From contig JAAEOK010000052.1 of assembly GCA_024244705.1 (NCBI GenBank), positions 62,001-126,000 of the forward strand: DNA of 64,000 bases. The letters run 5' to 3'. A program made the position numbers and the translations under genes. This stretch comes from Alphaproteobacteria bacterium. GTDB lineage: Bacteria > Pseudomonadota > Alphaproteobacteria > JAAEOK01. The notes below the pieces were generated by a model that did not search any database, was not told the DNA's origin, and saw nothing but the letters and a program-made list of their open reading frames with translations. This document shows positions 57,479 to 63,725 of the stretch, piece by piece (the stretch's first letter is position 1; every line of letters begins with the position of its first letter).

Positions 57479-58105
57479 ATGACGGTGTGGGATCTCAGTC
57501 CGCCGATCCGTCCCGGGATCCCGGTGTGGCCTGGGGACACGCCCTATGACGAGGCGCGGACTTGGCACCTGGACGAAACCTGTCCGGTCAATGTGGCCAG
57601 GATCACGATGTCGACCCACACCGGAAGCCACGCCGACGCGCCGCTTCATTACGACCCGGCGGGGGCGCCCATCGGTGGGGTATCGTTGGCACCCTATATC
57701 GGACCCTGCCGCCTGATCGATGCGACGGAAGCCGAGGGCGTGGTGCCGCCCGAAATGGTGCGGCCGTTCCTCGATCCGCCGATCGAGCGCATGCTGCTCC
57801 GAACCATGCGGCACAGTGTCGCCGATCGCTGGGACGAAAATTTCACCGCCGTGGCGCCGGAGACAATCGAACTCATCGCCGAAAGTGGCGGCCTCCTCGT
57901 TGGCATCGATTCACCGTCCATCGACCCGCAAAATTCGAAGTCCCTCGATGCCCACAACATGGTCCGCCGTCATCGCATGGCGATTCTCGAAGGACTGGTC
58001 CTCGCCGACATCCCGACCGGCGACTATGAATTGATCGCCCTGCCGCTGAAGCTCGCCAATGCCGATGCGGCGCCGGTGCGCGCCATCCTGCGCGGCTTGC
58101 GGTGA
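57479..58105 (+). CDS. kynB: Kynurenine formamidase (arylformamidase), KynB type
   Basis: A 208-residue cyclase-family metalloenzyme that hydrolyses N-formylkynurenine to kynurenine. The metal site is STHTGSHADAPLHYD; WDLSPPIRPGIPVWPGDTP at the start and LLVGIDSPSIDPQNSKSLDA are characteristic. Its stop overlaps the GTG start of kynU (GTGA). Confidence 0.94.
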   Translation: MTVWDLSPPIRPGIPVWPGDTPYDEARTWHLDETCPVNVARITMSTHTGSHADAPLHYDPAGAPIGGVSLAPYIGPCRLIDATEAEGVVPPEMVRPFLDPPIERMLLRTMRHSVADRWDENFTAVAPETIELIAESGGLLVGIDSPSIDPQNSKSLDAHNMVRRHRMAILEGLVLADIPTGDYELIALPLKLANADAAPVRAILRGLR

Positions 58106-59367
58106 GCGAGGCGCCGACCCGGGAGGCCCTGGCGGCGCGCGACGGCGAAGACCCGCTGGCGCCGTTCCGCGCCCGGTTCGTCATTCCCGACGACGTCATC
58201 TATTTCTGTGGCAATTCCCTCGGACCGCTGATCGCCGACGTCGCGCCGCGGTTGAACGCCGTCATTCGCGACGAATGGGGCCGAGACCTGGTCAAGAGTT
58301 GGAATGTGCACGATTGGATCGGCCTGCCGGCCCGCCTCGGCGACAAGATCGCCCGGCTCATTGGCGCCGATCCGGGCGAGGTCGCGGTCGCCGATTCGAC
58401 CTCGGTCAATTTGTTCAAGCTGCTGGCGGGGGCGCTGCGGTTGCGCCCGGGCCGCGCGACAATCCTGTCCGAAGAACGCAACTTTCCGACCGATCTCTAT
58501 GTGGCTCAGGGTCTGGCCGGTCTCGTCGGCGACGGCGCTCGCCTGAGGCTGGTCGGCGACGATGGCGCGCACTCCAGCAGCGATCAAATCATCAGGGCGC
58601 TTTCCGACGACGTCGCCGTGGTGATGCTGACCGAGGTCGACTTCAAGACCGGCGAGCGTCACGACATGGCCCGGGTCACCGCGGCCGCCCACGATGCCGG
58701 GGCCTTGATGCTGTGGGATCTCGCCCATAGCGCCGGCGCCTTCCCGGTCGGCCTCAATGCCTGCGGCGCCGATCTCGCGGTCGGCTGCAGCTACAAATAT
58801 CTGAACGGCGGCCCGGGCGCGCCGGCCTTCCTCTATGTCGCGCGATCGCTTCAGAACAACATCCGGCCTGCGCTTTCGGGTTGGATGGGCCATGAATCGC
58901 CGTTCGCGTTCGATATCGACTATCGGCCCGCCGACGATATCACGCGCAATCTCTGCGGAACGCCGGTCGTGCTCGCGCAAGCGGCCTTGGAGGTCGGTCT
59001 CGACGTGATGCTGGAGGCGGACCTCGACGCCATCCGCGCCAAATCGGTCGCCCTCGGCGAGGCCTTCATCGCGCTCGTCGAGGAAAACTGCAGTGAGGAA
59101 GGATTCCGACTTGTCTCACCGCGCGATTCGGCACGCCGCGGCAGCCAGGTCTCGTTCGCCCATCCCCACGCCCATGCGATCATGCAGGCCCTGATCGATC
59201 GCGGTGTGATCGGCGATTTCCGTGCTCCCGATGTCCTCCGCTTCGGCCTCACGCCCCTCTATATGCGCTATGTCGACGTTTGGGACGCCGTCGATATCCT
59301 GCGCACGATCATGGCGACGCGGGCCTGGGACAAACCGGAGTTCCACCGCCGCGCGGCGGTGACCTGA
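58102..59367 (+). CDS. kynU: Kynureninase
   Basis: A 421-residue PLP enzyme that cleaves kynurenine to anthranilate and alanine. It shows VIYFCGNSLGPL, the PLP lysine motif GCSYKYLNGGPGAPAF and HESPFAFDIDYRPADDI. The start is a GTG overlapping the kynB stop. It is the last gene of the transglutaminase-kynB-kynU unit and ends 11 bases from the convergent reductase gene. Confidence 0.95.
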   Translation: MSEAPTREALAARDGEDPLAPFRARFVIPDDVIYFCGNSLGPLIADVAPRLNAVIRDEWGRDLVKSWNVHDWIGLPARLGDKIARLIGADPGEVAVADSTSVNLFKLLAGALRLRPGRATILSEERNFPTDLYVAQGLAGLVGDGARLRLVGDDGAHSSSDQIIRALSDDVAVVMLTEVDFKTGERHDMARVTAAAHDAGALMLWDLAHSAGAFPVGLNACGADLAVGCSYKYLNGGPGAPAFLYVARSLQNNIRPALSGWMGHESPFAFDIDYRPADDITRNLCGTPVVLAQAALEVGLDVMLEADLDAIRAKSVALGEAFIALVEENCSEEGFRLVSPRDSARRGSQVSFAHPHAHAIMQALIDRGVIGDFRAPDVLRFGLTPLYMRYVDVWDAVDILRTIMATRAWDKPEFHRRAAVT

Positions 59368-59378
59368 GCGCCGTCCGC

Positions 59379-60134
59379 CTACGCACCCATATGGCGCAAC
59401 GCGGCGGCGCAGGCTTCCGGCCACGCCTTGAGCCCCCGCTCCTCCGCCATCCGCCGGAATCCGGCCTCGGTGATACCACCCGGTGTGGTCAACCGCTCCA
59501 GCGTTTCATCCAATGGCGTCTCGGGAAAGGCCAGGGCAACGCCGGCGGCGCCCCGCATCATACCGGCGACCAGCTCCCGCGCCTGCTCCGGCGGAACATT
59601 CTGGGCGACCACCCAATCGGTGGCGGCCTTGATCACGCCATAGGTCCAGCCGTGAAACGCGCCCATGACGCTGGCCGCGCCAAAGGACGCCTCGTCGGGC
59701 AAAACGATGACGGTGCCGAGGCGCCGGAACAGGTCGTGGGCGGCGGCGTGATCCGGATAGATCGCGGTCGGGCTCTCGCCGATCGCCGCACAGGAGACCG
59801 GCATCGAGCGCACAATGTCGGCGGGCGCGGCGGCCGCGAGATCGGCCAGGGTCGCCCCGGCGCCCACCGAGATCAGGGACTGATCCTGCCGCCACGGCAA
59901 CCCGGCGACGACCGCCGTCACGTCGGCGGGACGCACCGCGAGGATCACCACATCGGCGGCCTCGACGACGTCGCGATTGCTCGCCGCCACCCGGCAACCG
60001 AAAGCGTCGGCCAGCGCTTGCGCCCGCCCGGCGTTGCGGGGCGACAACACGATGTCGTCGCCGCGCCGATCGCGGCACAGGCCTTCGACCATGTAGGTCG
60101 CCATGTCGCCGACCCCTAGAAATCCGATGGTCAT
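59379..60134 (-). CDS. Pyrroline-5-carboxylate-reductase-like oxidoreductase
   Basis: A 251-residue NAD(P)-dependent enzyme. The Rossmann loop GFLGVGDMATYMVEGL is at the N-terminus, and TTPGGITEAGFRRM replaces the family's TSPGGTT signature near the C-terminus. The usual MPN of the active site is MPV (VRSMPVSCAAIG). These changes suggest an imine or ketone substrate other than P5C. Its ATG overlaps the stop of the cobalamin-binding gene (ATGA), so the two are co-translated. Confidence 0.8.
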   Translation of the reverse strand: MTIGFLGVGDMATYMVEGLCRDRRGDDIVLSPRNAGRAQALADAFGCRVAASNRDVVEAADVVILAVRPADVTAVVAGLPWRQDQSLISVGAGATLADLAAAAPADIVRSMPVSCAAIGESPTAIYPDHAAAHDLFRRLGTVIVLPDEASFGAASVMGAFHGWTYGVIKAATDWVVAQNVPPEQARELVAGMMRGAAGVALAFPETPLDETLERLTTPGGITEAGFRRMAEERGLKAWPEACAAALRHMGA

Positions 60135-61921
60135 TTGCGCTTCAACTCCCTGTTGACGCGATCGCCCGACAACCGGTCGAGATGCAGCAGCATGTCCTCG
60201 GGTTGTGAGCAAACGATTGCACCACGTTCGGCAAGCGCCGCGGAAACGTCGACCGGCAGGCTGGTGTTGGACCCGTCCGGCACCTGATTGAGCTTGCCGC
60301 CGACATAGATCGGGATGTCGAACCCGGCGCCGGCCATCGCCTCGCGCAGGGCCGTAAGATAGGTCAGCGCGACTCCGTTGTAAGTGCTGACGGCGACAAA
60401 ATCGGCGCCGCCGGCCCGGGCCGATTCGACGATGGCCCCGATATCGCCATGGGTACCGCCATCGACGACGGTGACGCCGACCTTCGCCAGTACGGTATCG
60501 ATCAGGATCTTGCCGTATTCGTGGACATCGGTACTGACGACGACGCCGGTGAGCCGCGACGCCGTGAGGCGGTCGCGAAGCGCCGGATCGAGGCGCTCGA
60601 TACGGCCACTGCCGTCGCGTTCGATGTCGGCGATGCTCGGCGCCTGGACCACCGGCTGGCGGCCGCGGCGGCAGGTCGCATCCAAACGCCCGGGCCCGAA
60701 CAGCCGTTCAAGTTGGGCGGCGCCGATGCGGCGGATCGCGAGCAGCAGCTCGGCCGGGTTGGTGATATCGATTGCGGATTCGGCGAGGCCGGCGAGCACG
60801 TTGTCGCGGAATCGCTCGCCGCCGGCGACGATGGCATCGGCGGCCGCTCGCGCAGCGGCGGTGTCGATGGGCGGCTGCAGATGTTCGGCGCGCTCGATCA
60901 ACCGGTTGGCCGCCATGTGAACGGCGATGATCTCGTCGATATCGGGGATCCGCTGCGCTTCCGTCACCGGCACCGGGTTCAGGGCGTGCCCGGTCGGCGC
61001 GATGCGCTGGCCGAGGACGTCGACCAGAAAATAGGCCGCGAGATTGGCCCAGTTCTCGTCTTCGTTGGCGCCATAGCTGGTCGTGTTGCCATAGACCATC
61101 GAGCCGGGAGCGCCGCCGATCTGGTTCAGCGCCAGCAGGAAGGCGAGACGCTTCGGTCCGTCGGCGAAGGTATTGCCATAGCAATGGGTCACCTGGGCGC
61201 CGATCAGGTCCTCGACGATATAGCGTTCGATCAGCACCGCGCCGAGCGAGCAGGCGAGATCGGTGAACAGTGCCGCGAAGCCGTCGTCGAGATTCGAATG
61301 AACCAGGCACTCGACCGGTTGCGCCCCGATCAGCGCGATCGCGGTGACCGTGGCCGTGGTGGTGTCGACATCTTCCGGCCAATTCGGCATACGAAAGGTG
61401 AAATATTGACCGAGATTGCCGATCGTCGTCGCGCCGGCGTGCAGCGCGGCGACCGTGTTTTCGACCGCCGCCGGCAGACCGATCACGAAATCGCCGAAAT
61501 GGGGGGCCACCGGCGCCGCCGCGGTCAGGCGGGCGAATTCGTCAGGGCCGTCGAGGACCAACCCGGTGCCGCGGCCCAGCGCGTCACGGCGAGCGGCGGG
61601 ATAGCCCATCGACCAATCGAGGCAGATTCCATAACGGTGGACGGTGTGGCCGGCGCGGTCGAGCGCGGCATGTATCTCGGCCCAGGCGCGGCGGCTCTTG
61701 TCGGGATCGCGAAAGCCAAACTGTGCGTGCAGCGTGATCGTGCCATCGGCGATCGCCCGGCGTTTGAATCCCGCCTCGCTGGCGACCCGGTAATGGTCGA
61801 GGAATGGGCAGCGCCCGACGGCGGCGGCTTCCGCCAGCCGCCTGCCGGCATCGATACTGGCCTGCCCATCCAGCGATTGCGCACCGGCGAGCAGCGCGTC
61901 ACGGTCGAGCGTCGTCGTCAT
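60131..61921 (-). CDS. Cobalamin-dependent mutase-like protein of unknown substrate
   Basis: A 596-residue protein. The C-terminal domain (about 450-585) is a classical B12-binding domain: DVHEYG (DxHxxG; Asp465, His467, Gly470), VSTYNG and YVGGKL. The long N-terminal part shows a barrel-like pattern with GLPAAVENTVAALHAGATT, YFTFRMP and HSNLDDGFAALFTDL, loosely like glutamate-mutase large subunits. The typical methylmalonyl-CoA mutase motifs are not seen. It probably catalyses an adenosyl-B12 carbon-skeleton or amino-group migration. It is translationally coupled to the reductase and divergent from the PhyH gene across 77 bases; no B12 riboswitch fits there. Confidence 0.72.
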   Translation of the reverse strand: MTTTLDRDALLAGAQSLDGQASIDAGRRLAEAAAVGRCPFLDHYRVASEAGFKRRAIADGTITLHAQFGFRDPDKSRRAWAEIHAALDRAGHTVHRYGICLDWSMGYPAARRDALGRGTGLVLDGPDEFARLTAAAPVAPHFGDFVIGLPAAVENTVAALHAGATTIGNLGQYFTFRMPNWPEDVDTTTATVTAIALIGAQPVECLVHSNLDDGFAALFTDLACSLGAVLIERYIVEDLIGAQVTHCYGNTFADGPKRLAFLLALNQIGGAPGSMVYGNTTSYGANEDENWANLAAYFLVDVLGQRIAPTGHALNPVPVTEAQRIPDIDEIIAVHMAANRLIERAEHLQPPIDTAAARAAADAIVAGGERFRDNVLAGLAESAIDITNPAELLLAIRRIGAAQLERLFGPGRLDATCRRGRQPVVQAPSIADIERDGSGRIERLDPALRDRLTASRLTGVVVSTDVHEYGKILIDTVLAKVGVTVVDGGTHGDIGAIVESARAGGADFVAVSTYNGVALTYLTALREAMAGAGFDIPIYVGGKLNQVPDGSNTSLPVDVSAALAERGAIVCSQPEDMLLHLDRLSGDRVNRELKRK

Positions 61922-61998: not shown

Positions 61999-62877
61999 AT
62001 GCTCGAGCCGCCACAGATCGACCGCTTTTGGGACGATGGCTATATCGTCGTCGAGGAGGCGATCACGCCCCAGCAGCTAGCCGCCCTGCGCGCCGAGCTC
62101 GACCGCTGGATCGAAGAAAGCCGCGACCATAGCGCCCCCTACGGCCCGCCGACGATCGACGGCCGACCGCGTTTCGATATGGCGGACGGTCATAGCCGCC
62201 TCGCGCCCGCCTTGCGGCGGGTCAACAATCCGTCCGACGTGGCGCCCGCCTTCGACGAGGTCCGTCTCAATTCGGCCATGGTCGACATGGTCGCCGACCT
62301 GATCGGCCCCGACCTCAAGTTCCATCACTGCAAGGTCAATTTGAAACGGCCGGGCGCCGAAACCCGGGTCGGCTATCATCAGGACTTCGCCTATACGCCG
62401 CACACCAACGACGACATCGTCACCGCCCTGGTCATGATCGACGACATGACCGAAAGCAACGGGTGCCTCAAGGTCGTGCGCGGCTCCCACCGCGGGCCAC
62501 GTTATTCGCTGTTCGACGGCGACCGCTTCACCGGCTTCATCGCCCCCGACATCGAAGCCGCACTCAGCGCGGAGGCGGCGGCGGTCACCGGCACCGCGGG
62601 CAGCGTCTGCCTCATGCACACCAATGTCGTCCATGGCTCGGACGCGAATGCCACCGATCGGCCGCGCGGCCTCTACATCTGCGTCTACAGCGCCGCCGAC
62701 GCCATCCCGCTGGCGGCCAACCCGATGCCCAATCCCCATCAGGGCGAGATCGTCCGCGGCAGGCCGTCGCGCTGGGCCCGGTCGCAGGACGGCGAAGTCG
62801 TGGAGCTGCCCGACCAGCCGAAGATGTCGTCGTTCTTCGCGGTCCAGGAGGCCGCCGCCCGCGGGGCGCCGTCTTAG
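61999..62877 (+). CDS. Phytanoyl-CoA dioxygenase (PhyH) family oxygenase
   Basis: A 292-residue Fe(II)/2-oxoglutarate-dependent oxygenase. The iron ligands are His-x-Asp in [10 protein letters not shown] and the distal His in [11 protein letters not shown], with Arg in RPRGLYICV for 2-oxoglutarate. The ATG at 61999 gives a normal length. Its stop overlaps the kynA stop by four bases in convergent orientation. Substrate unknown; a hydroxylation of a pathway intermediate is possible. Confidence 0.9.
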
Positions 62878-63725
62878 AGCGCCGTCCGCACGTTCCAGAT
62901 CTCGGGAAAGAAGCGGTATTCGAGGGCCGACCGCAGATAGGTGACGCCGGCGGTGCCGCCGGTGCCGCGCTTCAGGCCGATGATGCGCTCGACCGTGGTG
63001 ACATGGCGAAAGCGCCAGGTCTGGAACGCGTCCTCGAGGTCGACCAGTTTCTCGGCCAACTCGTAAAGGTCCCAGTAGCGTTCGGTGTCGCGATAGACGG
63101 CGAGCCAGGCCGCACGCACCGAATCGTCCGCCGGCCGCGGTGCCGACCAGTCGCGCTCGGTCTGCGCCGCCGCGACGGCAAATCCCCGCCGCCCCAACAG
63201 CCGGATCGATTCGTCGTAGAGGCTGGGTGCGTTCAATACGGCTTCGACCCCGGCCAGGATGTCGGCGCGGTGGCGGAACGGGTCGACCATCCGCCGGTCC
63301 TTGTTGCCGAGGACAAATTCCAGCATCCGGTACTGGTACGACTGGAACCCGGAGGCGTGACCGAGCGCGTCGCGGAAGGTCAGGTAGTCGGCCGGCGTCA
63401 GCGTCGTCAGCACCGACCACGACTGCACCAGTTGCTCCTGGATCCGCGACACCCGGGCCAGCATCTTGAACGCCGGGCCGAGGTCGTCATCGCGGATCTG
63501 GTGCATGGCGCCGTGGATTTCGTGCAACGCCAGCTTCATCCATAGCTCGCTGGCCTGATGGATGACGATGAACAGCATCTCGTCGTGCCGCTCGGTCAGC
63601 CGCACCTGCGCGCCCAGCACCTGGTCGAGCTTGAGGTAATCGCCATAGCTCATGCGCTGGCTGAAGTCGGTGACCGCGCCGTCGGCGGCGGCCTTGCCGT
63701 CGTGATAGTCGTCGGAAGATGTCAT
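62874..63725 (-). CDS. kynA: Tryptophan 2,3-dioxygenase
   Basis: A 283-residue haem enzyme that opens the indole ring of tryptophan to N-formylkynurenine. Motifs include [42 protein letters not shown] and the proximal haem histidine in [12 protein letters not shown]. The ATG at 63725 gives the typical length; the longer frame is not supported. With kynB and kynU it completes the route to anthranilate. Confidence 0.95.

Follow-up and report, generated by a model that had tools for sequence, protein, structure and literature searches.

The locus

We describe a two-gene module, often accompanied by a third gene, that lies in a 64,000-nucleotide stretch of DNA from an Alphaproteobacteria bacterium (contig JAAEOK010000052.1 of assembly GCA_024244705.1, positions 62,001 to 126,000; this whole stretch is called the window). 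The first gene encodes a B12-binding mutase-like protein of 596 amino acids and lies on the minus strand at 60131-61921, its open reading frame (ORF) running from an ATG at 61921 to a TGA at 60131. It is a single chain in which a barrel is joined to a B12 domain, as judged from the ORF, a match to Pfam family PF02310, an AlphaFold2 model and the match of that model to the glutamate mutase fold. The N-terminal TIM-type barrel region (residues ~15-450; 60572-61879, minus strand) was delimited by a VIA-align 2 match to 6h9e_B, and the C-terminal B12-binding domain of Rossmann type (residues ~454-588; 60158-60562, minus strand) by a match to 1i9c_A and by PF02310. Within the latter the motif DVHEYG (D465-G470; 60512-60529, minus strand) stands out by its conservation across alignment rows, H467 being the predicted cobalt ligand.

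The second gene (59379-60134, minus strand; ATG at 60134, TAG at 59379) encodes a putative imine reductase of 251 amino acids that resembles pyrroline-5-carboxylate reductase (P5CR), assigned by PF03807 and PF14748 and by its place in a clade separate from ProC. Its start and the mutase stop share an ATGA (60131-60134, minus strand). A PhyH-type 2-oxoglutarate dioxygenase gene (61999-62877, plus strand; PF05721, 1.1e-27) is divergent from the mutase gene, with 77 bases between the starts; it is a probable third member of the module and was not part of the sequence-only reading from which this work set out.

That reading had placed the pair between kynU and kynA, correctly: both are called by NCBIfam models above cut-off. 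These context genes outside the module are kynB, for arylformamidase (57479-58105, plus strand; TIGR03035, 282 bits against a cut-off of 223), kynU, for kynureninase (58102-59367, plus strand; TIGR01814, 312 bits against 246), and kynA, for tryptophan 2,3-dioxygenase or TDO (62874-63725, minus strand; TIGR03036, 412 bits against 390.7). The end of kynU is separated by 11 bases from the end of the mutase/reductase pair, and the ends of kynA and the PhyH gene overlap by 4 bases. The module stretch has the same GC content (0.66-0.69) as kynU and kynA and so shows no compositional trace of a recent arrival.

A predicted adenosylcobalamin mutase

In a Pfam search of the mutase-like protein the B12 domain alone was matched (PF02310, E 1.9e-8, 34.6 bits against a cut-off of 32.1; residues 466-552 in the numbering of the longer TTG ORF). 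The consensus spacing of B12 domains is DxHxxG-x41-SxL-x26-28-GG; in ATG numbering the signature here reads D465-x-H467-x-x-G470, x41, S512-T-Y, x26, G541-G542. The DxHxxG motif that had been called clear from the letters alone is therefore canonically spaced, and the signature recurs in 36 of the 37 rows of the family alignment when G470 is allowed to be A. D465 and H467 are found in all 37 rows and G470 in 35.

The AlphaFold2 model (pLDDT 90.1, pTM 0.91) was compared with solved structures. The best match by VIA-align 2 was 6h9e_B, the epsilon chain of glutamate mutase (Z 27.5, 3.5 Å over 363 residues, 11% identity, model residues 15-473), with a second glutamate mutase chain, 1cb7_B, next (Z 27.3); lysine 5,6-aminomutase (Z 24.9), ornithine aminomutase (Z 21.2) and methylmalonyl-CoA mutases (Z at most 19.0) followed. 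The B12 domain matched the S chain of glutamate mutase, 1i9c_A (Z 15.4, 2.4 Å over 128 residues). Foldseek indicated the same class, with methylmalonyl-CoA mutase first (E 2e-12) and 6h9e_B at 4.9e-8. The methylmalonyl-CoA mutase family shares the single chain, the C-terminal B12 domain and that best Foldseek score, but its Z of at most 19.0 compares with 27.5 for glutamate mutase, and its chains are longer (~700-736 residues). Glutamate mutase (MutE/MutS, GlmES) shares the barrel and B12 folds; it differs from the present protein, whose parts are fused into a single chain with a C-terminal B12 domain, which is ~11% identical and which PF06368 does not match.

The likeness of the N-terminal part to a B12 mutase barrel, surmised in the sequence-only reading, thus holds in the predicted structure. 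A profile search against solved structures matched the B12 domain and not the barrel, so the kinship of the barrel rests on the predicted fold. As a prediction the assignment of the large protein to the adenosylcobalamin (AdoCbl) mutase class is secure, the closest barrel in the model comparison being that of glutamate mutase. A cobalamin adenosyltransferase gene is present in the host genome.

By sequence the B12 domain is most like methionine synthase among solved chains, which favors a corrinoid-dependent methyltransferase whose barrel would hold the methyl donor or acceptor; betaine- or methylamine-type demethylase-like genes near some mutase copies speak for the same alternative. We nevertheless consider it improbable, since the whole-chain predicted fold is nearest to the mutases. 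Corrinoid methyltransferases also have a helical B12-binding cap domain; Pfam reported none before the B12 domain here, a missing match that is weak evidence.

Pocket residues

For residue mapping we used the best collinear alignment of hidden Markov models (HMMs) with MutE, which has a probability of 2.8% and is not significant locally; global mode was useless. Glutamate mutase binds its substrate through R66, R100 and R149, the arginine claw, and through E171, according to PMC10947579. In the non-significant alignment (2.8%) these map to Q67, ~M105, H141 and L170, so that on this weak mapping neither the claw nor E171 is kept. In the same non-significant alignment E330 of glutamate mutase, which presumably binds the adenosine part, maps to the invariant E321.

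Ten residues are invariant across the 37 rows: H65, D102, M105, R112, D144, N169, S209, D212, D213 and E321. H141 and H208 occur in 35 rows and are missing from paralogues in tandem arrays; these paralogues retain the B12 motif. The predicted pocket comprises H65, D102, H141, D144, N169, H208, D212 and D213.

Glutamate mutase proper was tried as a candidate for the window protein, as was an aminomutase dependent on pyridoxal phosphate (PLP), and both are unlikely, there being no PF06368 match and no PLP lysine. A plain glutamate mutase whose subunits are fused, converting glutamate to 3-methylaspartate, would account for the best fold match and for the nearest NCBIfam model to the B12 domain, which is of MutS type (35.5 of 110 bits, far under its cut-off). 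It is made very unlikely by PF06368, which has no match in the host genome at E 1e-10 or in the protein at 0.1, by the apparent replacement of R66/R100/R149 with Q67/~M105/H141 in the alignment just described as not significant, and by genome G028, which encodes a true PF06368 protein in addition to a member of the mutase family.

In lysine 5,6- and ornithine 4,5-aminomutases the PLP lysine follows the cobalt-ligand histidine by 11 residues (His133/Lys144 and His618/Lys629), as stated in PMC3958899. An enzyme of that type, using AdoCbl with PLP, would agree with the second-ranked barrel matches (Z 24.9 and 21.2), but is barely credible here, the position 11 residues past the histidine being L, M, F or V and never K in the 37 rows.

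On these sequence comparisons the glutamate-holding residues and the PLP lysine of the aminomutases appear to be absent from the family. Because the three arginines seem to be missing from the pocket, where His, Asp and Asn are conserved instead, the substrate is probably a new one and not glutamate. We infer that a pocket so rich in Asp and His would fit a cationic or hydroxylated substrate; it might also form a metal site.

Occurrence of the family

Genome contigs yielded 28 loci with relatives of the mutase. Carriers number 8 of 142 related genomes, 16 of 385 genomes of the class and 4 of 398 in a phylum sample, with the host genome counted in each. The family is sparse, and the matches in the phylum sample all come from the same class. 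The Alphaproteobacteria and Chloroflexota contain relatives, and so do a Gammaproteobacterium bin, an Acidobacteriota bin and two Asgard archaea. Identity is 46-57% for the alphaproteobacterial, Chloroflexota, Acidobacteriota and Asgard relatives and 33% for one in a Clostridiales bin; mean column identity in the 37-row alignment is 59%. The family was not found in viral contigs, and a literature search that covered few subscription journals returned no description of it.

The 37 rows represent 36 distinct genes (L023 = L031). Gene calling was applied to 38 loci, which include partial contigs and second copies from three genomes (L003/L011, L015/L030, L073/L074); loci in the series L031-L060 that repeat others were kept out of the 38. 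The duplicates WIN and L069 were omitted from the tree, the pair correlation and the counts of PhyH and P5CR genes. For the tree, one P5CR gene of L069 that is lacking in L006 was retained, and partial mutases below ~480 residues were left out.

Most relatives have an N-terminal LPExxLPD motif, which is missing from the window mutase (window 61870-61900). Tandem arrays were seen twice: locus L006 (641-10404, = L069) has five mutase genes, one split in two frames, followed in L069 by two P5CR-like genes, and locus L009 (1379-8400) has a PhyH gene and then four mutase genes, the last cut by the contig end.

A divergent subfamily of the mutase directly adjoins a gene for MutL (PF13941), which we take to be a glutamate-mutase-associated protein, in two related genomes, G260 and G337 (1.2e-135 and 5.3e-119; neighborhoods L074 7498-10656 and L075 1358-4366). 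G260 also carries a main-family copy elsewhere in its genome.

A survey of plasmids gave a mutase match in 9 of 72,556 records, of which 8 cover at least 80% of the protein. A Rhizobium lentis plasmid protein (NZ_CP071455.1, 546567-547214), which carries the annotation DUF1349, aligns with the mutase over its C-terminal 37% only, with 40% identity.

The reductase partner

The reductase has Pfam matches above cut-off to F420_oxidored (PF03807, 3.8e-17) and P5CR_dimer (PF14748, 3.8e-13). Like ProC it thus has a Rossmann and a P5CR dimer domain, and its TPGGIT loop resembles the TSPxGTT of ProC; it differs where ProC has MPNTPA and the window reductase MP-x-S-x-AA. Its scores are under the cut-offs of the ProC equivalog models (TIGR00112, 124.2 of 196.75 bits; NF005063, 155.8 of 254), the 21 reductase relatives group in a clade of their own, to the exclusion of three ProC sequences (support 100/100), and the host genome encodes a separate canonical ProC. 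Judged by sequence on these three grounds, the reductase is a member of the P5CR superfamily and is not ProC.

A P5CR-like gene lies directly downstream of the mutase gene on the same strand in 19 of the 38 gene-called loci, and several of the loci without one are contigs that end at the mutase gene. The ATGA coupling first noticed in the window is present as described and is the usual arrangement: 16 of the 19 adjacent pairs, the window included, overlap by 4 bases, two overlap by 8, and one has a gap of 11 bases. Distances among the mutases correlate with those among the reductases (r=0.85 for 19 pairs; 0 of 10000 permutations as high), and r is 0.79 when one near-duplicate is removed; the correlation includes shared phylogeny, but the clades bring different phyla together. 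The Asgard archaea and the Acidobacteriota bin cluster together in both trees, the mutase tree adding further rows to that cluster. Mutase and reductase have diverged in parallel and have been inherited together, moving as one unit across bacteria and Asgard archaea.

Where an adjacent P5CR-like gene is absent, other reductase or dehydrogenase families may stand in for it. In G127 the mutase lies between OCD-family genes, and at three Chloroflexota loci it has SDR genes upstream. G662 has an aspartate-dehydrogenase-like gene two genes upstream of the mutase and a P5CR-like gene ~7 kb away.

Two loci on Mesorhizobium and Rhizobium plasmids (L104, L105) have mutase-less P5CR-like relatives beside an ehuABCD-type transporter, aspartate dehydrogenase, GntR and Xaa-Pro-peptidase-family genes. 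A link to ectoine was considered from the ehuABCD and aspartate dehydrogenase genes at such loci and from the likeness of PhyH to ectoine hydroxylase, and was not carried to a claim.

PhyH and the genes around the module

The solved chain closest to the window PhyH protein is a leucine hydroxylase, 5nch_A (4.5e-13), which we take to be GriE; ectoine hydroxylase ranks lower down. In griselimycin biosynthesis the leucine hydroxylase GriE and the reductase GriH serve the conversion of leucine to 4-methylproline, according to PMC5676206. The GriE/GriF/GriH route resembles the module in joining an amino-acid hydroxylase of the 2-oxoglutarate-Fe(II) superfamily to a methyl-pyrroline-carboxylate reductase; as set out there, it differs in having a zinc-dependent dehydrogenase and no B12 mutase, and GriH carries an F420-dependent annotation and is described as unrelated to NosF (PMC5676206). 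By analogy the parallel suggests amino-acid chemistry, and gives no evidence of the same pathway.

At five plasmid loci, in Phyllobacterium, Neorhizobium, two Shinella and Sinorhizobium, the mutase and P5CR-like genes are 0.1 to 7 kb apart. Four annotated rhizobial plasmid loci contain GntR regulators and branched-chain (Liv-type) or other amino-acid ABC transporters. In Shinella the neighbors include a flavoenzyme similar to pipecolate oxidase (242 of 600 bits). In Phyllobacterium they include a member of the proline racemase family (at best 323 of 550 bits), an aldehyde dehydrogenase, and proteins like D-amino-acid dehydrogenase and DapA. These identities are resemblances, since only the DapA-like protein among the ten plasmid-neighbor proteins scanned passes a curated cut-off (207 of 206.15). 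The rhizobial plasmid neighbors point to the use of an amino or imino acid.

Three kinds of neighbor recur in certain clades only: betaine-type genes, for a glycine betaine monooxygenase-like protein (309.5 of 670 bits) and for OYE-type and GcvT-fused flavoproteins; proline-racemase-type genes, which score 445 of 550 bits as trans-3-hydroxyproline dehydratase; and amidase genes. On complete contigs such as those of G028 and G378 the module is surrounded mostly by regulators, transporters and unrelated genes.

A Neorhizobium plasmid (L100, 10163-24397) and another genome (L088, 1-14327) have in common a syntenic catabolic island with genes for a flavoenzyme, a cupin, an aspartate-dehydrogenase-like protein, a hydrolase, the mutase, an SDR protein, an E1/E2 dehydrogenase, a 3-hydroxyacyl-CoA-dehydrogenase-like protein, a P5CR-like protein and GntR.

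The kynurenine genes

The sequence-only reading took the pair for a branch of kynurenine or tryptophan catabolism, in which the mutase would rearrange a kynurenine-type amino acid and the reductase act on the product. The position between kynU and kynA favors this in one genome only, and the survey of gene neighbors, which finds the pair consistently away from kyn genes, leaves the idea unsupported and highly improbable. Gene calls at the other 37 loci, 20 of them reaching 3 kb or more in both directions, include no kynU, kynB or TDO, and kyn genes are absent from L088 and from the five mutase-bearing rhizobial plasmid loci.

TDO was searched for in 37 carrier genomes (36 distinct, L029 apparently being the same as G291). 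A match was found in 11 and exceeded the cut-off in 8; thus 26 genomes have no match and 29 none over cut-off. Only in the host genome does TDO adjoin the mutase, and in G378 it is on the mutase contig at a distance of 1.0 Mb. Among the seven other over-cut-off TDO loci, kynU is near TDO in four, with gaps of ~40, 50, 75 and 690 bases between match ends, and no mutase match was found in any of the seven stretches, including those four kynU-TDO neighborhoods.

The module, with its PhyH hydroxylase, appears to have been inserted between kynU and kynA in the host lineage. Its position there says nothing about its substrate, and the kyn genes look incidental.

Proposed reaction and meaning

We see here a real family of predicted AdoCbl mutases of the glutamate mutase type that, by the family model, are not glutamate mutase. 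The module, often extended by PhyH, probably acts on a small amino or imino acid and would consist of a fused, single-chain AdoCbl radical mutase with a glutamate-mutase-related fold and an imine reductase. In the proposed reaction the barrel (E) and B12 (S) parts would work together in one chain. Binding of the substrate would break the Co-C bond, and the resulting 5'-deoxyadenosyl radical would abstract a substrate hydrogen; a 1,2-shift would then rearrange the carbon skeleton, and the hydrogen would be returned. The P5CR-like partner would reduce or, working in reverse, oxidize a cyclic imine or imino acid formed from the rearranged product. The use of AdoCbl, the direction, the amino-acid nature of the substrate and the order of the steps are all presumed in this scheme.

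Several observations weigh against it. The mapping of MutE residues relies on the non-significant HMM alignment, in which only the order of strands and helices fits the model, by our own reading. MutL is over its cut-off in 2 of 16 carrier genomes, and the host genome is not one of them. A P5CR-like gene lies within 2.5 kb of the mutase in only 20 of the 38 loci, many contigs ending close by, and P5CR-like relatives exist without a mutase. PhyH is within 2.5 kb in 9 of the 38, and both partners in 6. Neighbors vary by clade, and scans for chosen genes gave no single pathway.

To our knowledge the carbon-skeleton reactions of AdoCbl mutases are few, namely those on CoA esters, glutamate and 2-methyleneglutarate. 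More tentatively, and with considerable doubt, we suggest that the family may be a further kind, acting on a cyclic or branched amino or imino acid and not on CoA esters or a glutamate-type dicarboxylate. A possible example is a glycyl shift between pipecolate- or lysine-type and 3-methylproline- or 3-methylornithine-type compounds; PhyH and the P5CR-like enzyme might then open, close or reduce the ring, and the tandem arrays might be sets with altered pockets, one for each substrate or step.

The locus also carries a caution, that function is not to be read from the gene neighbors of one genome. The presence of the module on plasmids of named rhizobia (Shinella, Neorhizobium, Phyllobacterium, Sinorhizobium) makes it amenable to gene deletion and in vitro work. 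If the proposal is true, a widespread and apparently uncharacterized single-chain family, with a conserved pocket of another make-up and a reductase dedicated to it, would add both a substrate class to the AdoCbl mutases and a route to amino-acid metabolism.

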